IMG/VR virus record: IMGVR_UViG_3300042945_002480 | Location: 1-21,342 of that record | DNA length: 21,342 nucleotides | From: a virus | Strand: one strand, 5' to 3' | In this document: piece after piece, positions 5,904-16,568 of the stretch | How the letters are laid out: each line of letters begins with the position of its first letter | How positions within the stretch are numbered: position 1 is the stretch's first letter | Notes under the pieces: model-generated | Told to the model about the DNA's origin: nothing | Database searches by the model: none | What the model saw: only the letters and a program-made list of their open reading frames with translations | Made by a program: the position numbers and the translations under genes

Positions 5904-6166
5904 AGGTCGAACGCCTTGCCCTTGAGATGCGACAGACGCCCCACGGACTGTGCGTGGAGCTTGCGCCGCGTGAGCTCGTTTCGGATCGCGCTAAGGATCG
6001 CTGCCTCGCTCATGTGCTCGTTGAACTCGAACGTGATCGTGCCCATGAGCGCGAGCGGGTCGGCGCGACCGAGGAGCGCCGAGGCTTCGGCGTCGAGGTC
6101 GACGACGATGCGCAAGCGGCGGCCCTCTTCGGCGAGGTTTTCGATCTCTCGGAGTGTGTAGATCAT
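5900..6166 (-). CDS. Hypothetical protein, 88 aa
   Basis: Not recognised. It looks like a small folded alpha/beta protein: an N-terminal helix (MIYTLREIENLAEEGRRL), a strand RIVVDLD, a loop, a strand GTITFEFNEHM, then a helix SEAAILSAIRNELTRRK and a basic C-terminus. ATG 6166 overlaps the stop of the HTH regulator as ATGA and has GAGG four bases upstream; its own stop overlaps the next start in the same way. The tight coupling to the regulator suggests a shared expression unit, but no function can be given. Confidence 0.75.
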   Translation of the reverse strand: MIYTLREIENLAEEGRRLRIVVDLDAEASALLGRADPLALMGTITFEFNEHMSEAAILSAIRNELTRRKLHAQSVGRLSHLKGKAFDL

Positions 6167-6366
6167 GTTCCCTCGATGAGATCGGTGACGCTGACGCCGA
6201 GCAGCTCGGCCAACTGTCGCAGTTGCCCGACGCGCGGCTCTGTCTTGCCCTTCTCCCAGCTCGCCAGGGTCATCGTCGTCACTCCCACGGCCGTTGCGAG
6301 CCTTTGCTGGCTCTGCCCCAGAACTTTCCGATACGCAGTGATTCTCTGCCCGACTGTCGCTGTCAT
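6163..6366 (-). CDS. Cro/C1-type (XRE) helix-turn-helix regulator, 67 aa
   Basis: Small DNA-binding protein made of a single XRE domain. The five-helix pattern is visible: GQRITAYRKVLGQSQQRLATAVGV gives helices 1-2, TTMTLASWEKGKTEP is the recognition helix with the characteristic S/NxWExGxxxP signature, and QLRQLAELLGVSVTDLI forms the last helices. It would dimerise and bind a palindromic operator. ATG 6366 is chosen over an upstream in-frame ATG because GGAGGAGG sits 7 bases before it and the domain begins there. It lies 19 nt after the coiled-coil gene in the small-gene patch between terminase and portal. Its target is not evident; it could regulate this patch or be a passenger regulator. 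Confidence 0.9.
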   Translation of the reverse strand: MTATVGQRITAYRKVLGQSQQRLATAVGVTTMTLASWEKGKTEPRVGQLRQLAELLGVSVTDLIEGT

Positions 6367-6385
6367 TTCAGCACCTCCTCCGGGA

Positions 6386-6736
6386 TCACTTCTCCACTTC
6401 GACAAGCGTGTCGTTTGCAAGATCGCGTGCCGCGATCATCTCAGAAAACCCCCGCGTGTTCGGGTACGGAGTGCACCCAACCCACGGCAGGCACTCGACC
6501 AGCCGCGCACGGAGCTGCCTCTTCTCTGCCCGCAGCCGATCGACTTCGGCGAGAAGCGAGTCCAGCTCGGCAAGCAGATCGCACGCATCGCACCGCCCGT
6601 CGGGCGGCTCGTCGTGCGGCGGGTGCAGGATCTTTTCAAGCCTCGCGGCCGGCAGGGTCATCGTCCCGCCTCCGCTTTCTCGATCTCTCGCGTCCATCGC
6701 CTTGATCTCAATGGCGTTGCTTTCGTCCTCGATCAT
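6386..6736 (-). CDS. Coiled-coil hypothetical protein, 116 aa
   Basis: Not recognised. The centre contains a CDAC pair followed by a clear leucine-rich heptad run (LLAELDSLLAEVDRLRAEK, roughly residues 54-72) that predicts a short coiled coil, then a CLPWVGC pair. The N-terminus is acidic (MIEDESNAIEI) and the C-terminus ends with an amphipathic helix. The ATG at 6736 overlaps the stop of the immunity gene as ATGA, so the two are translationally coupled; the frame is open further upstream but the overlap fixes the likely start. Four cysteines could bind one zinc, or stay reduced. It could be a partner of the membrane protein encoded before it, which is inference from coupling only. Confidence 0.75.
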   Translation of the reverse strand: MIEDESNAIEIKAMDARDRESGGGTMTLPAARLEKILHPPHDEPPDGRCDACDLLAELDSLLAEVDRLRAEKRQLRARLVECLPWVGCTPYPNTRGFSEMIAARDLANDTLVEVEK

Positions 6737-6945
6737 GGCTTCTTGTTGCTCGGCCGCACGTTGTCCGAGAACGACCAGATCAGAGCGACGAGCCAGCCGA
6801 GGATCGACCAACCGAAGAACAGGTTGGTCAAGAAGATTGGCCCTGTGTTCCGGTGGTACCGCGAACTCGCCGTGATGAACGGCAGGAAGTACAGAAAGAT
6901 CAGAAAAAGACAGAACAACGCCGCCAAAACTTGATCACCTTGCAT
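6733..6945 (-). CDS. Superinfection immunity protein, T4 Imm-like, 70 aa
   Basis: Short inner-membrane protein with two hydrophobic segments: residues 7-25 (LAALFCLFLIFLYFLPFIT) and about 39-57 (LTNLFFGWSILGWLVALIW), separated by a polar loop ASSRYHRNTGPIF. The YFLPF...R.HRN....LTNLFFGW...GWLVALIW pattern matches the superinfection immunity family typified by T4 Imm, which blocks DNA entry by later-arriving related phages. The same domain also occurs in small bacterial membrane proteins of unknown role. ATG 6945 has an excellent AGGAGG seven bases upstream. It is the first gene after an 85-base gap holding an inverted repeat, so it may begin its own transcript, followed by the coupled coiled-coil gene. 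Confidence 0.85.
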   Translation of the reverse strand: MQGDQVLAALFCLFLIFLYFLPFITASSRYHRNTGPIFLTNLFFGWSILGWLVALIWSFSDNVRPSNKKP

Positions 6946-6995: not shown

Positions 6996-7028
6996 GCACT
7001 ACACAGGACTGGGGGCAGCGTGTAGTGC
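6996..7028. promoter_or_regulatory. Inverted repeat GCACTACAC-N15-GTGTAGTGC, candidate operator
   Basis: The gap 6946-7030 between the zinc-finger gene and the immunity gene contains a perfect 9-bp inverted repeat (6996-7004 and 7020-7028). The same 9-mer occurs three times in front of the ribbon-helix-helix gene and once more at 7082-7090. Downstream on the minus strand there is only a weak promoter-like pair (TTGGAC, then GCAATA 17 bases later). No run of T follows the repeat, so it is not a standard intrinsic terminator. An operator controlling the immunity gene group is the favoured reading. Confidence 0.5.
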
Positions 7029-7030
7029 AC

Positions 7031-7240
7031 TCAACGCTTCTGTTCGCCGATCGAAACGATGTCTTCTGTGTGGGTTTTCGTGTGTAGTGCGTGCGCTGCG
7101 AGCACTTGTGCCGCTGCATGGACACAACTAGCGCAAATGGCCGCGCCCGGTTGCTCGGAAAGAATCGCACTAGCTTCTTCCTGGCCTTTGCCACAGAAGG
7201 AGCAAAACTTAGGGCCTCGATCGATTCTCATACGCTTCAC
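7031..7240 (-). CDS. Stand-alone ClpX-type C4 zinc-finger protein, 69 aa
   Basis: The protein contains KFCSFCGKGQ at its start and AICASCVHAAA about 20 residues later. This is the C-x2-C...C-x2-C pattern of the ClpX zinc-binding domain (CSFCGK.Q....I..GP...IC..C), including the Gly-Lys and Gln that mark the family. In ClpX this domain dimerises and binds substrates and adaptors such as SspB. Here it is alone, with no AAA+ domain; the rest is a short basic and polar tail. The start is either GTG 7240 or ATG 7231 (MRIDRGPKF), with no strong Shine-Dalgarno for either. It follows the large terminase by 26 nt. It could interfere with host ClpXP or bind nucleic acid; this is inference. Confidence 0.8.
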   Translation of the reverse strand: MKRMRIDRGPKFCSFCGKGQEEASAILSEQPGAAICASCVHAAAQVLAAHALHTKTHTEDIVSIGEQKR

Positions 7241-7266
7241 GTTAGTCTTGCGCGTTACCGTTAGTT

Positions 7267-8790
7267 TTAGCGCGAAAGCAGATCGAGATTGAACGTTCGC
7301 ACGCGGCTCTTAGGCTGCTGTCTGCTGGCTTCACGGGCGAACCAGGAGGCCATGAGATGGTCGCCCGTGTGCTGCCGTGGATCATAGTAGAGCATCTCTG
7401 TGACCCAGGCATCGATCTCCTTCGTCGCTGGTCGGCCATTGACGGAGGGGATAATCCACTTGTTGTTCGCCATCTCGGTCGCGAGAGACTCGACTCCGAA
7501 CTCGGGGTGAGCCTTGTTCTTTCCCGTGAAGAAGGGTTTGACTGGCACTGCGCTGGTGCTCTTGGTGAAGTCGACGATGAACTGCTGCGCTGCGTTGTTC
7601 TCGACGATCACGATGCTGTTGTACCTGCGATGGGTGTCGATGATTCTATCCACGATGTCCTTCGCAGCCCATCGGCCGCTCTCGACCCAAAGAACCTCAC
7701 GGTCTTCGTTGGGATGAAGGACGATTGTGAATAGCACAGTGAGATCGGCGCCGTGACGAGCGCGGACACCCAAGTCCACGCCAGTGAAGACCCTGTAGCC
7801 GTGGGGGATCGTGCTGAGAGCGTAGGTCGGGGTGAGACCGTCCCCGCGCTTGAGGCATTGCTCGATCCACTCGCGCTTGAATCGCGCTTGGCTCTCGTCT
7901 CGCGGGATGCAGAGCATGGATCGCGCGAACTCATGGGCGAGATACTCGCGGCGTTTCTCTTCGATCCGTTCCATCGGCCAGCGCTCAGGCCAGGTGGACT
8001 CGTTCGTCGTAGGATCTAGCACTGGAAACTTCTTCCATGTGTAATCTCCGGTTGCTGCGAGTTCGTGCATCAGGTCTTCGGGGTGGAAGGCGTTGCCGAC
8101 AAGCAGCACCTTCGCCTCTGGCGTCAGGCGGGACATGGGCACGGCGTAGTACCAGTCCTTCGCGGCCTGCCGATGCGAGGGGAGCATTGTGTTCTTGTGA
8201 TTGAGCAGATCGTCGCCGATGAAGCGGTCGGTTCGCGAACCGATCAACGACGCAATGCCGATGCTGGTAGCCTGCACTGAGGGATCCTTGGGCATTCCCT
8301 TTCTCGCCGGTTGCTCGACGGAGATGGCTGACGCGCTCCACACTGGGCCAGGCTTGAGATCAGGGAAGATGTCGTGGATGGGGCCAGGTGCTTCGATGTA
8401 TCGACGGATCGCAGAGACAATGCGCGAGGCGTACCGCGAAGTCGCCGATCCGACGACGAAGCGGAGGCGCGGGTTGTTCCCCAGCTCCCAGAGTGTGTGC
8501 CCGATGCTCAGTTGCGACGTCTTGCCACTCTCGACGTGACCCCAAACGAGTAGACGATTGTGCTTTGCTGCAAGCCGGTGAAACTCCTCATGGATCGGGG
8601 CCTGCTTGATCGGGCGCCCAGATTGTTCGTCGCGAAGAACAAGCTCGCAGAACTCGTTGGGATCGGTTCGAGCAACACGCACACGAAGCCAGTAGAGCTG
8701 CTCTCGGATAGCGGCTGCCTGCTTGGGGTTACGCCGAATCCAGTAGATCAGCTCGCTGCGCGGCATACCCCGGAGGTCTTCGAGATTCAT
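7267..8790 (-). CDS. terL: Terminase large subunit, 507 aa
   Basis: Packaging motor ATPase plus nuclease that cuts concatemeric DNA and pumps it through the portal. The ATPase domain has a Walker A variant, GHVESGKTS (84-92), and a Walker B-like RFIGDDLL (about 189-196) with its acidic pair at 193-194; VLLVGNAF (229-236) fits the coupling motif. The RNase H-like nuclease domain shows VFTGVDLGV with Asp 339, IVIVENN with Glu 397, and TGDHLMA with Asp 477. These are the three expected acidic metal ligands. Length is normal. ATG 8790 overlaps the stop of the small-subunit gene as ATGA. The Walker A lacks the second canonical Gly, as in many phage terminases. The portal gene lies about 2.2 kb downstream rather than adjacent. 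Confidence 0.95.
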   Translation of the reverse strand: MNLEDLRGMPRSELIYWIRRNPKQAAAIREQLYWLRVRVARTDPNEFCELVLRDEQSGRPIKQAPIHEEFHRLAAKHNRLLVWGHVESGKTSQLSIGHTLWELGNNPRLRFVVGSATSRYASRIVSAIRRYIEAPGPIHDIFPDLKPGPVWSASAISVEQPARKGMPKDPSVQATSIGIASLIGSRTDRFIGDDLLNHKNTMLPSHRQAAKDWYYAVPMSRLTPEAKVLLVGNAFHPEDLMHELAATGDYTWKKFPVLDPTTNESTWPERWPMERIEEKRREYLAHEFARSMLCIPRDESQARFKREWIEQCLKRGDGLTPTYALSTIPHGYRVFTGVDLGVRARHGADLTVLFTIVLHPNEDREVLWVESGRWAAKDIVDRIIDTHRRYNSIVIVENNAAQQFIVDFTKSTSAVPVKPFFTGKNKAHPEFGVESLATEMANNKWIIPSVNGRPATKEIDAWVTEMLYYDPRQHTGDHLMASWFAREASRQQPKSRVRTFNLDLLSR

Positions 8791-9557
8791 CGCTGCGCAC
8801 TCCGCTTCTCGCCGAGATTGACGACCTCCGCTTCCTCGTACGCCTCCGCAGGTAGATCGATAACGATGTTGCCATCCAGGTCGATGTAGGTCGTACCCGT
8901 CTCGCCCGGTGACACACGAACTGCCCGCGTGAGCGTGCGCTGGATGCCGAGCAGCTCATCAACAGCCTCCTCGCTGGTCAGGTCTTCTAGGTTCTGGACA
9001 CCTAGGATCGAGGAGGGCTGGTTGTTCTTCAAGCGCTCAAGCTCCATCGCGAGTCGGATGGCTTCGTTGGAGTGCCTGGTCACAGCAGCCGTGTCGCTGA
9101 TCAGCCTTGAGATCTCTTTCGGTGAGAGCGCGTTGGCATTCGCGCTCAATACCTCTTGCGCCTTGTTCGAGAGGGGCAGCATGGCCTTGAGCAAGCCCTG
9201 GAGAAGCGCGCCGACAGCGATGCTGTTCGTGCGTGCGATCTGAACAGCCCGCGCTTCATCTTCTGAGGCTCGCTGCGCGGCTCGACGAGACTCCTCGCGC
9301 TCTTTCTCAACTGCGCTGCGTTCATCCTCGGCAGCCTTGAGGCGGTCGCGACGAGCAATCTCCATCTCTTCGCGCAGCACTTCGCGAATCGGGCGAGCCC
9401 ACGCGTACTGCTTGATCCAACCGTGACTCCAGCCGCGCCGCGCCGTGCGTGGGTCACAACCCGCGTACCTCGCTGCGTGCGAGGCGTTGCCTGGCTGCTG
9501 CCGGTAGCCATCGACGATCGCGTTGTAGAACTCTTGTGTGATCGGCCTGCGTGCCAT
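8787..9557 (-). CDS. Probable terminase small subunit, 256 aa
   Basis: Likely the DNA-recognition subunit that brings the genome end to the large terminase. Evidence is its position immediately upstream with a 4-nt overlap, an N-terminal helix-turn-helix-like segment (QEFYNAIVDGYRQQPGNASHAARYAGCDPRTARRGW) typical of small terminases, and a long charged helical region (about 60-108) that would form the oligomerisation coiled coil. The C-terminal third (ILGVQNLEDLTSEEAVDELLGI to the end) is acidic and strand-rich, plausible for contact with the large subunit. ATG 9557 has GGGAGG seven bases upstream. No sequence match could be tested, so a generic DNA-binding protein is the alternative. Confidence 0.8.
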   Translation of the reverse strand: MARRPITQEFYNAIVDGYRQQPGNASHAARYAGCDPRTARRGWSHGWIKQYAWARPIREVLREEMEIARRDRLKAAEDERSAVEKEREESRRAAQRASEDEARAVQIARTNSIAVGALLQGLLKAMLPLSNKAQEVLSANANALSPKEISRLISDTAAVTRHSNEAIRLAMELERLKNNQPSSILGVQNLEDLTSEEAVDELLGIQRTLTRAVRVSPGETGTTYIDLDGNIVIDLPAEAYEEAEVVNLGEKRSAQR

Positions 9558-9569
9558 GCGCCACCTCCC

Positions 9570-9791
9570 TCAGAGTTCAACGATGAGGTCGGAGAGTTCT
9601 TGGCGGCTGCGTTTGCGCCGCCCGCCGTCTGTGCGCATGTCTGCCTCGACCTCGCGCTCCATCAGGTCGCGGATCAGTGCGGCGGCAGTCGTGCGACGAA
9701 CTGCTGCTACACGCTTGAAGCGTTCCCACAGCTCGTTCGGTAGCCGAATGGACTGCGGCGTTGAGTTAGCTCGATCTAGTACGCCAGTCAT
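9570..9791 (-). CDS. Ribbon-helix-helix DNA-binding protein, 73 aa
   Basis: Small regulator of the Arc/MetJ/CopG fold. The strand TPQSIRLP is followed by helix NELWERFKRVAAVRRTT and helix AAALIRDLMEREVEAD, the standard ribbon-helix-helix layout; the strand side chains Gln/Ser/Arg would read the major groove as a dimer. The C-terminal 20 residues are basic then hydrophobic. The ATG at 9791 abuts a cluster of three GTGTAGTGC-type repeats and has no Shine-Dalgarno, so translation may be leaderless or weak. Auto-repression through those repeats is the simplest model. The small terminase gene starts 12 nt after it, so it could control late packaging genes. Confidence 0.87.
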   Translation of the reverse strand: MTGVLDRANSTPQSIRLPNELWERFKRVAAVRRTTAAALIRDLMEREVEADMRTDGGRRKRSRQELSDLIVEL

Positions 9792-9826
9792 GTGTAGTGC
9801 AACACACTACACGGAACGCACTACAC
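9792..9826. promoter_or_regulatory. Three-copy GTGTAGTGC repeat cluster, candidate operator
   Basis: Between the 130-aa gene and the ribbon-helix-helix gene are gtgtagtgc (9792-9800), acactacac (9804-9812) and gcactacac (9818-9826). The first two make an 8-bp inverted repeat with a 5-base spacer. On the minus strand TTGACG just upstream, overlapping the previous stop codon, could be a -35 element, with TAGTGT 16 bases later as a weak -10. A repressor bound here would cover both the promoter and the start codon of the regulator gene. Confidence 0.6.
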
Positions 9827-9827
9827 G

Positions 9828-10220
9828 TCAAGCCATCGAGAGCTTCATGCGATCCCGGTCGTTGGGATCGCTGCCTGAAAGAAGCGCATGTTCAGCAACA
9901 ACGAGTTCCATCAGCTCAATAGCTTGAAGCATCTTCTTCCGCGACCACCATGCTTTGCGCCGACGCCCGTGCGTTTGATGTGTTGCTAAACCGCGCCGCA
10001 GATCGGATAGAAGCCTCGCTGGCCGCGAGATGTGAATGCGCTTCGGTGGCCCAATAGGGAGCGCATCAAACGCGCTTCCAGGCATACCGATGAGCATCGC
10101 CAACTCGTAGACGTGCCCATCCCAGCCTTCAGATGAGCACGCGGCCTGGAGCACCGCGAACCGTTCCAACCGTGTGAGATTGGAGAGTTCTGCGTTGGTG
10201 CGTTGACCTGGTGGGTTCAC
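9828..10220 (-). CDS. Hypothetical protein, 130 aa
   Basis: Not recognised. The first half is helical (NLTRLERFAVLQAACSSEGWDGHVYELAMLIGMPGSAF), then comes a basic stretch ISRPARLLSDLRRGLATHQTHGRRRKAWWSRKK that could contact nucleic acid, then a helix LQAIELMELVVAEHALL and a polar tail. The start is the GTG at 10220, overlapping the QueE stop as GTGA; the Shine-Dalgarno is weak, so translation is probably coupled to QueE. The gene ends exactly where the repeat cluster of the next gene begins. Nothing links it firmly to base modification or packaging. Confidence 0.72.
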   Translation of the reverse strand: MNPPGQRTNAELSNLTRLERFAVLQAACSSEGWDGHVYELAMLIGMPGSAFDALPIGPPKRIHISRPARLLSDLRRGLATHQTHGRRRKAWWSRKKMLQAIELMELVVAEHALLSGSDPNDRDRMKLSMA

Positions 10221-10885
10221 GGCAAGCCCGCCACTTTGTGCGTTTGAATCGACAGGCGCCAGTGCGGGTTCTTCATCACATAGTCGGCCGCTTGGCGCAT
10301 GTTCTCTCGGTCGAGCAAGCTCTTACCAACCTCTGCTGGAACGCACGACGCGCGCGGCTGCACGAAGTGATGCGACGCCAGCACACCGGCGTCGATGTAG
10401 CTCTGGGGGTCGTAATCAGGGAACACGACCTTGATCTCATCGACGTTGCGAAGAGCAAGACGGTGGGGCGCCACCTTGGGTGACATCGTCAGCCAGAGTC
10501 TCGGTGCGAGATCGTGCGGAGCATCGAGCGTGCCGTTGGTCTCGACAGCGACTACACGAGACCCGCGCTCCAGCATCTCGACGAGAGGAGCATCGATCTG
10601 GAGCAGCGGCTCGCCACCAGTCAGCACGACCAGCGGGACGTTTGGCAGCGCCGCGATTCGCTTGTCAAGCTCGTCGAGCGAGAGCTTCTCGCGCATCGCG
10701 AAGTCGGTGTCACACCATCGCGGACACTGGGCCTCGTGGCGAGCGGCATCCCGCTCACGATCTTGCGGCTTGCCGCTCCAGAGGTTGCATGCCGCGAAAC
10801 GGACGAACACCGCGCATGTGCCTGCGTGATAGCCCTCGCCCTGAATGGTGTGGAAGATCTCGGTGACTGCGTACTTGTTTCCCAT
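10217..10885 (-). CDS. queE: 7-carboxy-7-deazaguanine synthase QueE, 222 aa
   Basis: Radical S-adenosylmethionine enzyme that contracts 6-carboxytetrahydropterin to 7-carboxy-7-deazaguanine, the third step towards preQ0. Recognised by EIFHTIQGEG at residues 9-18, FAACNLWSG (30-38), WCDTDF (57-62), LTGGEPLLQ (88-96) for SAM binding, VAVETNGT (112-119) and SPKVAPH. The cluster cysteines appear to be C33, C54 and C58, giving C-x20-C-x3-C instead of the C-x14-C-x2-C seen in several characterised QueE enzymes. ATG 10885 begins MGNKYAVTEIFHTIQGEG, a typical QueE start, but has no good Shine-Dalgarno. It is separated from queD and folE by the ParB-like and tagged genes yet belongs to the same run. 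Confidence 0.93.
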   Translation of the reverse strand: MGNKYAVTEIFHTIQGEGYHAGTCAVFVRFAACNLWSGKPQDRERDAARHEAQCPRWCDTDFAMREKLSLDELDKRIAALPNVPLVVLTGGEPLLQIDAPLVEMLERGSRVVAVETNGTLDAPHDLAPRLWLTMSPKVAPHRLALRNVDEIKVVFPDYDPQSYIDAGVLASHHFVQPRASCVPAEVGKSLLDRENMRQAADYVMKNPHWRLSIQTHKVAGLP

Positions 10886-10905
10886 GCAGGAAGTCTTGCA
10901 CGCCG

Positions 10906-11214
10906 CTACTTCTTTTTCACATACCTCTTCTTGCCGGAAGCGGTGACGACGAAGGTCCCGCCCTTGGCGCCACGCTGTGTCGAAGCAGCAGCTCTCTTCT
11001 GATCTGCTGCGTAGAGCTCGGGGTGCGCGGCAACCATGTGCTGATGTCGCGCATGATCGTGCTCGCGCCGCCTCTTCGGGTCGCGCACGGTCTGGAGAGC
11101 TTCGACGTGCGCAGCTGCCGCGCGCACGTGCGCCTCACGAGTCCGAAGGTGGTTGGCCTCCTGAGTCAGCCGATGCGCTCTCGCTGATGCCGTCTCGCTG
11201 CGTGCCGTTGCCAT
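10906..11214 (-). CDS. Small basic helical protein with KGGTF...YVKK tail, 102 aa
   Basis: Family not recognised. Residues 1-80 are Ala/His/Arg-rich helix (TQEANHLRTREAHVRAAAAH is representative), and the last 21 residues are GAKGGTFVVTASGKKRYVKK plus Lys, nearly identical to the end of the 274-aa protein at 760-1584. ATG 11214 has a perfect AAGGAGG six bases upstream, which fixes the start even though it lies 80 nt inside the ParB-like gene in another frame. The protein is strongly basic, suggesting nucleic-acid binding. It sits between the ParB-like gene and queE, inside the modification cassette, so it may be a cassette component or may simply share a virion-type tag. Confidence 0.85.
   Translation of the reverse strand: MATARSETASARAHRLTQEANHLRTREAHVRAAAAHVEALQTVRDPKRRREHDHARHQHMVAAHPELYAADQKRAAASTQRGAKGGTFVVTASGKKRYVKKK
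10912..10971 (-). repeat. Copy 2 of a duplicated C-terminal tag segment
   Basis: These bases encode GAKGGTFVVTASGKKRYVKK. They align with 766-825 at both DNA and protein level; within the tag only one residue differs (Ala for Lys after VVT). Confidence 0.75.
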
Positions 11215-11908
11215 CCTGTGCCTCCTTGCTCTTCCTGGCCTTGCGCTTGCCCAGAGGCGGTGTGGGGCCCTGGGCGGGGTGCTCCTCGGCGTAGACGGTG
11301 CACAGGTGTGCAAGGGCCACGGCGAGGTCATCGGTCGATGCGTGTTGCTGCGCAGCGACGATAGCACGGTCGAGCGCCGCCCTCTGGTCAGCTGTGAGCT
11401 TGACCTTGAAGGTCTCCGCAGCCTCGCTGCCAGTCACACCAGCAGCATTCGCGTCGTCCTGCACGATGATCGAGTTGAGGTCGAAGGAAGCGATGTCGAG
11501 CATCCGCTGGATGTCTTCGGAGGTGTAGGGCAGCGCGGCCATGCCGACATCGCCGAGCTCCATGTGCAGGCCCGCGATCAACTCTGCGAGCTTGTTCGTG
11601 TCAGGCTCGCCACTGATCTCGTTCAGCGCAATGGTCAATCGCTTGGCCACGTGATCGGGAATCTCGCCCAGGTCGACCACTGCGATGTCGGCAACCCCTT
11701 CGAGCTTGGCCGCGCGCCAACGGTGCTCGCCGTCCACGACCTCGAAGCCGTCGATGCCCGGCACGCGCCGGACCGTGACGGGATCTACGAACCCGAACTC
11801 GCGGATGCTCCGGCGAGCCCGCTCGAACATGAACTCGCTCTGCTGATTCGGATTCCAGGGATTCGGCCGCAGGGACGCCGCGGGCACCACACGCACTTCG
11901 TTGATCAT
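11135..11908 (-). CDS. ParB/Srx-domain protein, 257 aa
   Basis: The N-terminal domain (about residues 3-90) has the ParB/sulfiredoxin-like fold signature: RPNPWNPN, then RRSIREFGFVDPVTVRR, then VVDGEHRWRAAKLEG with the GEHR motif at 60-63. This fold binds nucleotides and in several families cleaves CTP or ATP or nicks DNA. The middle is helical and the last 40 residues are basic then Ser/Gly-rich and look disordered. ATG 11908 is preferred to the GTG at 11920 because GGAG lies six bases before it. The gene follows dpdA by 12 nt. In bacterial dpd islands the transglycosylase DpdA works with DpdB, which I recall as DndB/ParB-related; a similar partner role here is inference. Confidence 0.88.
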   Translation of the reverse strand: MINEVRVVPAASLRPNPWNPNQQSEFMFERARRSIREFGFVDPVTVRRVPGIDGFEVVDGEHRWRAAKLEGVADIAVVDLGEIPDHVAKRLTIALNEISGEPDTNKLAELIAGLHMELGDVGMAALPYTSEDIQRMLDIASFDLNSIIVQDDANAAGVTGSEAAETFKVKLTADQRAALDRAIVAAQQHASTDDLAVALAHLCTVYAEEHPAQGPTPPLGKRKARKSKEAQDGNGTQRDGISESASADSGGQPPSDS

Positions 11909-11920
11909 TTCTCTCTCCAC

Positions 11921-12862
11921 CTATCGAATGCCGGGGATCGGTCGTGTCGGCGCTACGGTCACGCGCGAGTCGAGCCACTGCTGGAAGTCCGCATACGACT
12001 CCATGGATGCGAAGGCATGCCGATAGTACACGGTACGCTTCTTGAGCGCTTCGATCTCTTCGGGGAACCTCTTGGCCACGAGAGCAAGCCATCGCTGCCA
12101 CTCGGGTGAGTCCAACTCGAATGTCAGGATCTTGCCGTTACCCGTGTGCAAGCTTGACTGGTTGTACCGCACGCCAGAGATCCACGATGTCGAGTCGCAT
12201 GTGTATGCTAGCGGCGTCATCATCAACTCCGGCACCGTGCAGCCGAGCAAGTGGATCCTCGGCGGCAGCTTGCCTGCGTCCGCGCATGTCTTGTGGATCC
12301 GCTTAAGTAATGCGAACACCGCCTGCTTGTAGCGATCGCTACCCATCGAGTGCGTTCCACCGCCTACGGTCACCCGGAGCTCAGGGACAGAGAGCGCGAT
12401 GTAGTCCTGTTCGAGCGCGAGCTTGTCGAGGCCGTCGAGTCCCTCGGGCGCGTGCCAGACGTAGATCACTCGCCCGCCGAACGGCTTGAACTCCTCCCGC
12501 AATCGATGCGTCGCATCCATGCCGAGCAGCTTCTGCGTGTCGCTCTCGACGAACAGACCGCGGTAGCCAGCCTGATCGAGAGCCTCGATGTACCGTAGCG
12601 TGTAATCGCGGTACGCATCGAACGTGCGCGGCAGCATCCCTTTCTTCGTTCCGAACATCAGGGAGAAGAGGCCGCTGTCCACGATCAGCGAACCGGGCAC
12701 CGTGTCCTTGAGCGCGTCGTAGGTGCGGTTGCGGCGGCCAGGCCCGCCGAGCTCCAGGTAGGAGACCAGGACCCACAGGCCGCTCTCGCCGTTGCGCCAG
12801 CGCCGCTCGACCCAGAAGGCGCCAGGACCCTCCAGAGTCGCTGCGGCTAGATGGACCCTCAC
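11921..12862 (-). CDS. dpdA: DpdA-type DNA-guanine transglycosylase, 313 aa
   Basis: A member of the tRNA-guanine transglycosylase superfamily in its DNA-acting DpdA form, which exchanges guanine in DNA for a 7-deazaguanine base. VDSGLFS (61-67) corresponds to the DSGGFQ motif of TGT with its active-site Asp 62; HLLGCTVPE (204-212) matches the LLG substrate-binding segment; and CDSTSW (222-227) supplies the second, nucleophile-like Asp 223. The CxCxxC zinc site of tRNA-acting TGT is absent, and the protein is shorter than typical TGT (about 375 aa), as expected for phage DpdA. The start is a GTG at 12862, overlapping the transporter stop as GTGA with GGAGG just upstream; the frame stays open far upstream but that part lies under the transporter gene. 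Confidence 0.9.
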   Translation of the reverse strand: MRVHLAAATLEGPGAFWVERRWRNGESGLWVLVSYLELGGPGRRNRTYDALKDTVPGSLIVDSGLFSLMFGTKKGMLPRTFDAYRDYTLRYIEALDQAGYRGLFVESDTQKLLGMDATHRLREEFKPFGGRVIYVWHAPEGLDGLDKLALEQDYIALSVPELRVTVGGGTHSMGSDRYKQAVFALLKRIHKTCADAGKLPPRIHLLGCTVPELMMTPLAYTCDSTSWISGVRYNQSSLHTGNGKILTFELDSPEWQRWLALVAKRFPEEIEALKKRTVYYRHAFASMESYADFQQWLDSRVTVAPTRPIPGIR

Positions 12863-13476
12863 GACAGCCTCCGAACGCCTGCAATCGCCCCGTAGGAAGC
12901 GGGCAGGCCGCCGATGGCGCACACCAGCTTGAGCGCGTACTGCGCGCCGATCATCACAGCCAGTATGCCCCACGGCAGCACGAAGGCGAACGCCACCAGA
13001 ACGAACACGGTGGAGTCGACGGCCTGTCCGACCACCGTCGACCCGAGCTTGCGCAGCCAGAGCTTCTTGGGCCCGGTCCAACTCCGGATCAGGAAAAACA
13101 TCCGCACATCGACCAGGCCGCCGAGCAGGAAGGCCGCGAGTGAAGCGCCAACGATCCTCGGAGTCGTCGCGAACACCGAGGCGAAACACACGCCAGTGGC
13201 GTCTGCGCCGGCCGGTGGGATCGCGAGGGCAAGCGTCGAGAACGCAACCAACACCAGACATCCGACGAAGGAAGCCAGCACGACGTGCCGTGCGCGCTCT
13301 TCTCCGTAGAGCTCGGAGATCACATCCTGGAGCACGTAGGTCAACGGGTAGGCCAAGGCACCCACGGTGAACGGCCCGAGCCCGAAGTCGATCAGCTTGG
13401 CCGCGACGGCATTGGCCGTCACATGCCCGCCTACGTAGATCGCCAGCAGGAACGCAAACGCCTTCTCGCGCCGCAT
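12859..13476 (-). CDS. yhhQ: YhhQ-type queuosine-precursor transporter, 205 aa
   Basis: Integral inner-membrane protein of the vitamin uptake transporter (VUT, YhhQ) family, which imports preQ0 or preQ1. Hallmarks are TANAVAAKLIDFG (20-32), LAYPLTYVLQDVISELYG (41-58) with the conserved Asp and Glu, RMFFLIRSWTG (115-125), KLGSTVVGQAVDSTVF (133-148) and a hydrophobic C-terminal part with ALKLVC. About six membrane segments fit within the 205 residues; E. coli YhhQ is 221. ATG 13476 begins one base after the previous stop. It sits between the QueD-like gene and dpdA, so it most likely feeds the transglycosylase by scavenging a ready-made base or preserving supply when host synthesis is weak. Confidence 0.93.
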   Translation of the reverse strand: MRREKAFAFLLAIYVGGHVTANAVAAKLIDFGLGPFTVGALAYPLTYVLQDVISELYGEERARHVVLASFVGCLVLVAFSTLALAIPPAGADATGVCFASVFATTPRIVGASLAAFLLGGLVDVRMFFLIRSWTGPKKLWLRKLGSTVVGQAVDSTVFVLVAFAFVLPWGILAVMIGAQYALKLVCAIGGLPASYGAIAGVRRLS

Positions 13477-13477
13477 G

Positions 13478-13816
13478 TCACCACTCCACGCGCGCGCCGC
13501 ACTCGTCGTCTTCCCAGACCTCGATCGCAAGAACCGGAAACTGCGAGAGCAATGTTCGAAGAACGATCGCGATGTGCTCACAAGACCTAGCACCCCACTG
13601 GTACTCACCGTCACCGAGAGCGAGACGAACAGCGCGCTGAAGTGTGTGAAACTCAATCTCTCGATCGCCGTCTACGACTGCGCACTCGACCCTGAAGGTG
13701 AACAGATGCCGGTGCTGCTGAGAGAGATATGCGACATCTGCTGGCGCGTTGGGCCAGGCGTGGAATCCGACCTGCCTGTGCGTCACGATGACGCGCGTTC
13801 TGGGAAGTACGGGCAT
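13478..13816 (-). CDS. Divergent QueD-like T-fold protein, 112 aa
   Basis: It resembles the 6-pyruvoyl-tetrahydropterin synthase/QueD fold. GFHAWPNAP gives His19, and QQHRHLFTFRVE gives His35 and His37; these are equivalent to the three zinc-binding histidines of QueD (H14, H27, H29 in the neighbour). SCEHIA (78-83) matches QueD TAENIA, and EVWEDDECGARVE matches the IYETPTSCADY strand with the substrate-binding Glu. The catalytic Cys that precedes HGH in QueD is missing; the only nearby acidic element is D27. From memory, similar FHxWPxAP...HRHxF proteins accompany preQ0 genes in other phages and actinobacteria. ATG 13816 overlaps the folE stop as TGATG with GGAGGT five bases upstream. A role in the deazaguanine pathway is inferred; the reaction is unknown. 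Confidence 0.75.
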   Translation of the reverse strand: MPVLPRTRVIVTHRQVGFHAWPNAPADVAYLSQQHRHLFTFRVECAVVDGDREIEFHTLQRAVRLALGDGEYQWGARSCEHIAIVLRTLLSQFPVLAIEVWEDDECGARVEW

Positions 13817-14412
13817 CACTCACCTCCTGCCAAAAGACGCAGCACTTCCGCGCGCGCTGCGGGATCATCGCGGAATAGGCCGCGAAGCACAGATGTCGCC
13901 ATGTCCATACCGCTCTTGCGCACGCCACGGCAGGAGGCGCAGGAGTGCTCCGCTGTTACGAATACCGCCACAGCTCGCGGCTTTAGGTACTTCTCCAGAG
14001 CATCGGCTATCTGCGAAGTCATCTGCTCCTGTAGCTGCGGGCGCCGTGCATACACATCAACGAGTCGTGGGATCTTGGACAATCCTACGACACGGAGCTT
14101 ACCCGGTGCGCCTGCGGGGATGTACGCAACCGATGCTCTCCCGGTGAATGGCAACAAGTGGTGCTCGCACAAGGAACTGAACGCGATTCGACGTACCGCG
14201 ACGATCTCGTCGTAGTTCCCAGAATCAAACGTCACGCTCAGAAGCTTGTCGACGTTGACCTCCGCGCCCTGCGTCATCTCCAGCATCGCGTCAACGACGC
14301 GGCGAGGGGTGTCGCGGATACCTTCACGGTCCGGGTCTTCGCCGACGTACTCGAGCAACGCGCGAACACCCATCAAGGCAGCCTGCCGCAGCCCAGGATC
14401 ACGCCGAGGCAC
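13816..14412 (-). CDS. folE: GTP cyclohydrolase I FolE, 198 aa
   Basis: It converts GTP to 7,8-dihydroneopterin triphosphate, the first step shared by folate and 7-deazaguanine synthesis. Clear family motifs are GEDPDREGIRDTPRRV near the N-terminus, SLCEHHLLPF carrying the zinc Cys and catalytic His, GLSKIPRLVDVYARRPQLQE, and AEHSCASCRGVRKSG with the second zinc Cys. The canonical C...HH...HxC ligand set is complete, so it should be active as a decamer. The start is set at GTG 14412 because AGAGG lies five bases before it; GTG 14418 and ATG 14373 are alternatives. It overlaps queD by 14 nt and the QueD-like gene by 1 nt, marking one translation unit. A phage copy increases flux to the DNA base. 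Confidence 0.95.
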   Translation of the reverse strand: MPRRDPGLRQAALMGVRALLEYVGEDPDREGIRDTPRRVVDAMLEMTQGAEVNVDKLLSVTFDSGNYDEIVAVRRIAFSSLCEHHLLPFTGRASVAYIPAGAPGKLRVVGLSKIPRLVDVYARRPQLQEQMTSQIADALEKYLKPRAVAVFVTAEHSCASCRGVRKSGMDMATSVLRGLFRDDPAARAEVLRLLAGGE

Positions 14413-14848
14413 GATCACCTCTACAGTAGTCAGCGCAGGAGGTTGGAGTCTCGTAGATCTTGATGTTGGTCACTGAGACACCAGTACCAGCAAGCAGCTC
14501 GCCAGCCCGGTGATGCAGCTCGATGGCGATGTTCTCAGCAGTCGGCTCACCATTGAAGACGTAGGGAGGTCGCTTGCCTAGAGCGACATGCTCGTGCTCA
14601 CAAAACGCCATCAATGCCGCGTCTGCGCGGTTGACCAGCGTGGTGTGATCCCAAGTGTCGTCAATCCACTTGCCTACGCGCTCTTTGATCACGCTGAAGT
14701 CAACAACGCGCCCAACGCTATCAAGTGCTGGCGCGGTGACTGTGATCTCAGCGGCGTACCTGTGCCCATGCAGAGACCCACACTTTGACTCGTGCCGAAG
14801 GACACGGTGCGCGGAGTCCCACTCCAATCGCTTCGTTACAGTGATCAT
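14399..14848 (-). CDS. queD: 6-carboxytetrahydropterin synthase QueD, 149 aa
   Basis: It turns dihydroneopterin triphosphate into 6-carboxy-5,6,7,8-tetrahydropterin, the second step of preQ0 synthesis. All expected residues are visible: zinc ligands H14 (DSAHRV), H27 and H29 (SLHGHRY), catalytic C23 in KCGSLHGH, the DFSVIK strand, the WDHTTL Asp-His pair (67-68), PTAENIA and the substrate-anchoring E133 in YETPTS. Length is within the usual range (about 120-150). ATG 14848 has GGAGG five bases upstream. It begins the modification cassette 70 bases after the SbcC-like gene; that gap has no recognisable terminator, so read-through from the recombination block is possible. Confidence 0.95.
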   Translation of the reverse strand: MITVTKRLEWDSAHRVLRHESKCGSLHGHRYAAEITVTAPALDSVGRVVDFSVIKERVGKWIDDTWDHTTLVNRADAALMAFCEHEHVALGKRPPYVFNGEPTAENIAIELHHRAGELLAGTGVSVTNIKIYETPTSCADYCRGDRASA

Positions 14849-14918: not shown

Positions 14919-16568
14919 TCAACTCGCAATCTCGATCCGTCCGCGGTCGACGTGAAGGCGTTGCACTACACGGAGTCGGCGCTTGATTGTGTCGTTGTGA
15001 CTGATCACAACGACACATCGATCTTTGGCGATTTCGTCTAGCACCGAACACGCAGCGTCCACGCCGGGGTCGTCTAGGGCGTCGAAGACCTCATCGAAGA
15101 ACATCGTGCCAGCAGAGACACCTAGAGCAGCCTCCGCGATCTCCGCGAGAGCTAGCATCAGCGCGATGTCGATGCGGCGGCGTTCTCCGCTGCTGGCCGC
15201 AAGGTAGCCGTGACCGTTGCCAGCACCAACAACCTCAAGGGAGATCGCATCCTTAACACCACCGGACGCCTTCTCTGAGTAGGGAGACAGCGCCAACGTC
15301 AGCCCGCCGCCACACAGCCGATCCAACCAAGCATTCGCCACCCCCTCCACGCCACCCAACGCCTGCCCGAGTAGATGTGCACGGACACCCCCCAAAGATA
15401 GGACGCGCTCAGCGGCGCTGAGGTTGGCGCAGGAGGCGCGGAGAGTCTCGACCGCCACCCCCCCACCCGCCAGAGCTTCCTGCGCCTCCTGGGCGGCGCG
15501 GCGCGCGACCGCAAGCGACTTCTGTAGCCGTGCCACTTCCGAAGCAGCCGCCGCAGCCGCACGTTGTCGTTCGGTGAGTGTCGCACGGCGCTCTCGCAGC
15601 GAGAAGACGGCTTGCGTCAGGCGGTTCAACTCCGCGCGGTGTGCACTGATCTGCACCGCCTTCTCGGCTAGCGAGTCCCTAGCGTGAACCTCAGCAGTCT
15701 TCGCCTGCTTGCGCAAGATGCGAAGATGCTCTCCCGAGATAGGCTGTGAGCAGGAAGGGCAGTCGCCCTCGATCTGTTCTGCCTTGCGCGCTCGCGTGTG
15801 CTTCGCTTCGATCTGTGCGCGCGTCTGCCGTATGTCTACGTCCAGCTCACGCTCTGCCAAAGAGACAGCACGCATCTGAGCTTCATGTCGTGCGATCATG
15901 GACTCAAGCTCTTCCAACTCCTCGTCGACCTCGCAATCCGCAGAGTGCTGCACCGCGCCTGCAACAGCCTCCTCCAAGTCCTGAACACGCCGAGTCGTTG
16001 TCTCGTGCTGAGACTCCAAACGCGCCAACGCTTGCTCAGCTTGAGCAAGCTCCTTCGCGCGATCACGAGAGTCGCGATTGACCGCTGCGTGAGCAGTGTC
16101 GAAACGATCCAACCCGAGCAGGTCTTCGAGCAGTCGCTTGCGCTCACCATCGGTCGAGCGAGAGAAGCTGTCTGCGTCAGATGATGAGAAGACATGCGTT
16201 CTGCGCCAAAGAGAATGCGATCCAGCAACCTGCTCAAGCGCTTCTTGCGCCTTCGTTTTGGTCTCAAACTCTGCGGAGCTAGCCAAAGTGGAGAAGTGCA
16301 ACGACGTCTTCGCTTTGACCCGAGCGCGCTTGATGAGGAGCGTCTCCTTACCCACCTCGGTCAAAAGCGCGATCTCTGCACGCTCAGACGCCCAGAGAGG
16401 CTTGCGGCGCAAAGACACATCCCACACGCCGACACTCACGGCCTCGATGATCGAACTCTTACCAGCGCCGTTTGCGCCAGTAACTAGGACCACCCCCGCC
16501 TTTGGTAGAGTGACCTTCGTCTGTGCGTGACTCATCACATTGGTCAGAGCTACTTCCAACACTCGCAT
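14919..16568 (-). CDS. sbcC: SbcC/Rad50-like (T4 gp46-like) ATPase, 549 aa
   Basis: The SMC-type ATPase subunit of a DNA end-processing nuclease, partner of the SbcD-like protein. It has Walker A GANGAGKSS (31-39), a coiled-coil arm running to a zinc hook CPSC at 270-273 and returning, the ABC signature SSGERRR (459-465), Walker B TMFFDEVFDALDD (about 488-500) with the D-loop, and the SHND switch His (about 524). At 549 residues it is short like T4 gp46 (560), not like bacterial SbcC (about 1000). ATG 16568 is chosen for its GGAG six bases upstream and because MRVLEVALTNVMSH is the expected first strand; the frame is open to a TTG at 16583. It overlaps the 124-aa gene by 110 nt. Confidence 0.94.
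   Translation of the reverse strand: MRVLEVALTNVMSHAQTKVTLPKAGVVLVTGANGAGKSSIIEAVSVGVWDVSLRRKPLWASERAEIALLTEVGKETLLIKRARVKAKTSLHFSTLASSAEFETKTKAQEALEQVAGSHSLWRRTHVFSSSDADSFSRSTDGERKRLLEDLLGLDRFDTAHAAVNRDSRDRAKELAQAEQALARLESQHETTTRRVQDLEEAVAGAVQHSADCEVDEELEELESMIARHEAQMRAVSLAERELDVDIRQTRAQIEAKHTRARKAEQIEGDCPSCSQPISGEHLRILRKQAKTAEVHARDSLAEKAVQISAHRAELNRLTQAVFSLRERRATLTERQRAAAAAASEVARLQKSLAVARRAAQEAQEALAGGGVAVETLRASCANLSAAERVLSLGGVRAHLLGQALGGVEGVANAWLDRLCGGGLTLALSPYSEKASGGVKDAISLEVVGAGNGHGYLAASSGERRRIDIALMLALAEIAEAALGVSAGTMFFDEVFDALDDPGVDAACSVLDEIAKDRCVVVISHNDTIKRRLRVVQRLHVDRGRIEIAS

Follow-up and report, generated by a model that had tools for sequence, protein, structure and literature searches.

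Does a short word that recurs in the DNA of an uncultivated phage serve as the operator of a small ribbon-helix-helix (RHH) protein encoded next to it? The question arises in the virus fragment IMGVR_UViG_3300042945_002480, whose entire record of 21,342 bp is the window analysed here and the scope of all counts given for it. An earlier note on this DNA had proposed that a 9-mer repeated in two intergenic gaps is bound by the RHH protein and connects the expression of that protein with packaging and superinfection immunity. All seven copies that it placed were found exactly there, six of them exact copies of GTGTAGTGC and one, GTGTAGTGT, carrying a single mismatch:

6996-7004, minus strand, exact copy
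7020-7028, plus strand, exact copy
7082-7090, plus strand, exact copy inside the zinc-finger gene, 54 bp away from the inverted pair
9792-9800, plus strand, exact copy
9804-9812, minus strand, one-mismatch copy
9818-9826, minus strand, exact copy
14963-14971, minus strand, lone exact copy in the SbcC-like gene

The exact word was seen 6 times compared to 0.125 expected, the highest ratio of any 9-mer in the window, and in none of 300 order-2 Markov simulations did the best 9-mer match its log-likelihood score. When one mismatch was allowed there were 10 matches in the record, compared to 3.78 ± 1.87 in dinucleotide shuffles; none of 100 shuffles reached 10. Five of the seven copies lie in non-coding sequence, which amounts to 406 of 21,342 bp (1.9%) for a gene set picked by hand. 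The binomial probability of this, about 5e-8, overstates the significance, because clustered copies are not independent events. There are two clusters: A at 9792-9826 and B, which extends into the zinc-finger gene, at 6996-7090. The copy at 7082, which the earlier note had listed apart, was correctly placed and is better taken as a member of the cluster that holds the inverted pair. The statement that nearly all copies lie in or next to gaps applies to six of the seven, the exception being the isolated copy at 14963. Since chance alone would give about 0.1 exact copies, this one, which is probably a chance match, is not counted as a site.

The genes around both clusters are on the minus strand; at cluster A the order is RHH, probable small terminase, large terminase. 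Those at cluster A, with the elements before them, are:

9804-9831, minus strand, promoter-like pair TTGACG (9831-9826), 16 bp, TAGTGT (9809-9804), overlapped by motif copies
9792-9827, minus strand, proposed operator, a 36-bp gap with three motif copies, proposed from the copies in the window and a matching array in the relative L007
9570-9791, minus strand, RHH gene (73 aa), proposed to encode the motif binder on weak family matches, a structural model and a homologue in L007
8787-9557, minus strand, probable small terminase, directly after the RHH gene and preceding the large terminase, no family match
7267-8790, minus strand, large terminase (PHROG 38, E 4.7e-50)

Cluster A fills the gap from the stop codon of a 130-aa gene to the ATG of the RHH gene. 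The copies at 9826-9818 and 9812-9804 are direct repeats 14 bp apart, and that at 9800-9792 is inverted. The identification of the 73-aa product as an RHH protein, from sequence and model, is weak but consistent. It matched RHH_4 with an E value of 3.5e-4 and 21 bits, under the Pfam cut-off of 25, and Arc/CopG-like PHROGs at E 0.002-0.003; several further RHH families gave weak matches. The AlphaFold model (pLDDT 65) predicts helices at residues 19-31 and 36-54 and a C-terminal helix, with the N-terminal strand unformed in the monomer. Nearly all PDB matches to this model are RHH proteins, including Arc and CopG, none with an E value below 1. Searches of viral contigs and of phage records with the RHH protein sequence returned no relative.

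A search with the large terminase led to a 77-kb contig, L007 (handle G001), with 75% identity, and to an 8-kb contig, L008, with 99%. L007 is a true relative because it has many further genes in common with the window, among them those for RecA, SbcC/D-like and gp32-like proteins, portal, QueE and FolE. Both records are classed as linear by IMG/VR. Directly upstream of the small terminase of L007 is an RHH homologue of about 70 aa (37% identity over 43 aa). In front of it are three GGTGTAGCT copies, spaced at 14-bp steps and of mixed orientation. No other 9-mer in the 77 kb is as over-represented as this word, which has 10 copies compared to 0.25 expected. Seven of these surround the RHH and terminase genes, at 61.0-63.7 kb, and several of the copies fall inside genes. 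GTGTAGTG itself does not occur in the L007 contig; the two words have a core, GTGTAG, in common and differ in the flank. The diverged RHH gene of L007 has, in the same place, a similar array of a diverged word, and this comparison favours the operator claim. CTACAC accounts for 10 of 41 Leu-His codon pairs in L007, where CTA is only 3.2% of Leu codons. An argument built on these codon pairs was dropped, since the CTACAC excess extends beyond the terminase region and the gene calls are automatic.

The pairing of RHH gene and array was seen in these two independent phages only. About 80 further terminase relatives, with 41-55% identity and many on short loci, had no detectable RHH homologue and no array of this word. 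That relatives without the RHH gene are also without the array again speaks for the operator claim. The genome contigs contained one relative of the large terminase at 50% and two remote ones, with neither an RHH homologue nor an array of this word. Among the matches listed from isolated phages, all large terminases were below 25% identity and of no help for synteny. When viral contigs were scanned for words paired at a 14-bp step, there were few matches, many of which were tandem repeats, and L007 alone had an RHH homologue.

Repeated sites lie directly before the RHH gene in both the window and L007, as in an autoregulatory RHH operator. The L007 counterpart of the promoter-like pair is TTGCGA-17-TAGCTT, and in each phage the pair ends exactly 12 bp before the RHH ATG, with the -10-like element inside a motif copy. 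About 1.2% of shuffles scored as high in each phage, by criteria set after the sequence had been seen; a stricter promoter scan found none at the RHH gap. Taken in order, the copies of the window are forward, forward and reverse, those of L007 reverse, reverse and forward. Despite this difference, the copy at the -10 position points forward in both, perhaps because the promoter-like pair lies there. Before the RHH start there is no Shine-Dalgarno-like sequence in the window or L007; in the window, the immunity gene and the small terminase gene do have one. From the promoter-like position the RHH transcript would be nearly leaderless and the sites would cover the promoter.

Several RHH systems bear comparison with this locus. 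The omega protein of plasmid pSM19035 binds non-palindromic 7-bp sites, in mixed orientation, over the promoters of several genes (PMC9499535). The resemblance to omega (ParB) and its parS heptads lies in a small RHH protein and in short, non-palindromic sites, direct and inverted; omega sites lie over the promoter of the omega gene and those of further genes, and a like overlap is predicted here. In contrast to the contiguous 7-bp repeats of pSM19035, the present sites are 9 bp long, are a different word and recur at 13-14-bp steps. The context is phage packaging, and no ParA partner gene was seen beside the RHH gene. An omega/ParB-type partition centromere was considered for the array and rejected, given the lack of contiguous 7-bp repeats and of any ParA family match among the window proteins scanned. 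MobC of plasmid RA3, an RHH protein, binds between -35 and -10 and thereby represses its own operon (PMC4175270). Like the RHH gene of the window, mobC heads an operon with a DNA-processing enzyme. Its operator lies between these elements, as is proposed for the window, where the promoter is putative; MobC, however, has one imperfect palindrome and a conjugation relaxase, where the window has three 9-mers and a phage terminase. Arc, a phage protein, and CopG are also small RHH proteins with a site at a promoter, which is putative in the window, but their sequences are not closely related to the present one. They use one palindromic operator rather than three separate 9-mers, and the RHH gene of the window precedes a terminase rather than lying in an immunity region.

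A putative promoter covered by sites, together with the precedents of omega and MobC, therefore makes repression of its own and the packaging genes the most likely function of the RHH protein. We infer that this protein is the binder of the 9-mer and that its binding would repress. The link to the packaging genes drawn in the earlier note is supported: in the window and L007 the RHH gene lies directly before the small and large terminases, and L007 has extra copies upstream of the terminase starts, at a distance of about 60 bp for the small terminase and of about 40 and 120 bp for the large one. The three copies, two direct and one inverted, cover the probable promoter of the RHH gene, and RHH dimers on the array would block RNA polymerase; less RHH protein would then be made, and less of the co-directional small and large terminases. 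On the sequence evidence the 9-mer is probably the autoregulatory operator of the RHH protein, also holding down the terminases, and cluster B may serve the immunity gene. As a gene switch this would be of a common type, in a phage that has not been described. For an uncultivated phage group that has no close relatives among isolates, it offers a candidate pair of regulator and operator, in which a single small repressor would govern the terminase genes and possibly also superinfection immunity. The two diverged protein-site pairs could be swapped to study how RHH specificity changes.

Cluster B lies partly in the end of the zinc-finger gene and partly in the gap that precedes the immunity gene:

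7031-7240, minus strand, ClpX-type C4 zinc-finger protein gene (zf-C4_ClpX E 4.8e-10)
6996-7028, second motif cluster, two inverted 9-mer copies (6996-7004 minus, 7020-7028 plus) in the gap ahead of the immunity gene
6733-6945, minus strand, superinfection-immunity-type membrane protein gene, possible second target (Imm_superinfect E 7.8e-17; PHROG 1039)

Through cluster B the same RHH protein may act before the superinfection-immunity gene. In the near-identical L008, whose contig does not cover cluster A, cluster B is kept, with the arms of the inverted pair unchanged and two substitutions between them. The link to superinfection immunity made in the earlier note is positional, the inverted pair lying in the gap before that gene. 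Against it, a scan of cluster B found no promoter-like sequence, and neither an immunity nor a zinc-finger gene was detectable in L007. Cluster B may plausibly control superinfection immunity.

In several phages the small terminase binds within its own gene or close to it. The copies might then be a packaging-initiation region of the pac or cos type, bound by the small terminase, and the RHH gene merely a neighbour. In the window and L007 alike the array immediately precedes the small terminase operon, and the small terminase has relatives in both phages; the probable small terminase of the window is 47% identical to the L007 protein in the same place, L007 being the sole relative returned by searches with it. 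It also aligns with the proteins at the same position in L011, L012 and L015. In L007, copies of nearly all one orientation run through the RHH, small and large terminase genes. Relatives such as L012 and L015, however, keep the probable small terminase family but have no array of this word, whereas the RHH gene is found together with the array. In the window no copy lies inside the terminase genes, the second cluster is downstream of them, and the array sits on the RHH start and the promoter-like pair. A packaging site bound by the small terminase is thus unlikely. It is distinctly unlikely as well that both functions are combined, the RHH protein repressing the packaging operon and marking the terminase region for packaging initiation, with protein and word diverging together. 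Such an arrangement would resemble the RHH auxiliary relaxosome proteins at oriT.

That the word acts as nucleic acid, in RNA hairpins at the starts or ends of genes or as phage -10 boxes, is quite improbable. Hairpins can arise from inverted copies: a perfect 15-bp inverted repeat in L007 has an RNA fold z of -6.9, and the inverted pair at 6996-7028 also folds well (z -2.7). At 9792-9826, however, the fold is no better than that of shuffled sequence (z -0.8), no T-run follows the hairpins, and single unpaired copies and direct pairs exist. There are -10-like hexamers within motif copies, but mixed orientation does not fit promoters of co-directional genes. Another DNA-binding protein is a very improbable binder. 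The window encodes a ParB-like (11135-11920) and a Cro/CI-type (6163-6420) protein, and ParB-like sequences are found in L007 too; yet neither gene has an array of its own, no homologue of the Cro/CI-type protein was found in L007, and in both phages it is the RHH gene that has the array. That a short word, picked after the fact in a single 21-kb sequence, recurs by chance is scarcely credible given the simulations, the strong clustering and the comparable, diverged array that L007 has at the corresponding position.

The reading of the 9-mer as an RHH operator apart, other repeat arrays were encountered among the contigs. L081 and L082 have a GTGTCCCC array before the large terminase and no RHH homologue. 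At 5028-5151 of L081, and also in L082, five exact copies of GTGTCCCCG and one variant lie in mixed orientation shortly before the terminase genes of what is a more distant relative. Upstream of the large terminase, the GC-rich contigs L013 and L018 carry repeated AT-rich elements of the ACTATAATAT type, close to repeated gene starts and perhaps repeated promoters. The mixed-orientation GTGTAGC arrays of L138 and L139 were set aside, having been picked by the word itself. They comprise six copies of GGTGTAGC within 180 bp (12600-12785 in L138), where GGTGTAGC is the core of TGCTACACC-type repeats, and adjoin a gene whose product resembles a virus helicase/primase; they are possibly origin-like.

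The window also contains genes of the 7-deazaguanine pathway at 10217-14848, possibly for modified phage DNA, in a region that includes:

10217-10885, QueE-like
11921-13261, queuine tRNA-ribosyltransferase-like
12859-13656, Vut_1 family transporter
13816-14418, GTP cyclohydrolase I
14399-14848, QueD-type PTPS protein

At 760-831 and 10913-10977, two genes have a 65-nt stretch in common that is 85% identical and encodes the C-terminal motif KGGTFVVT.SGKKRYVKK.
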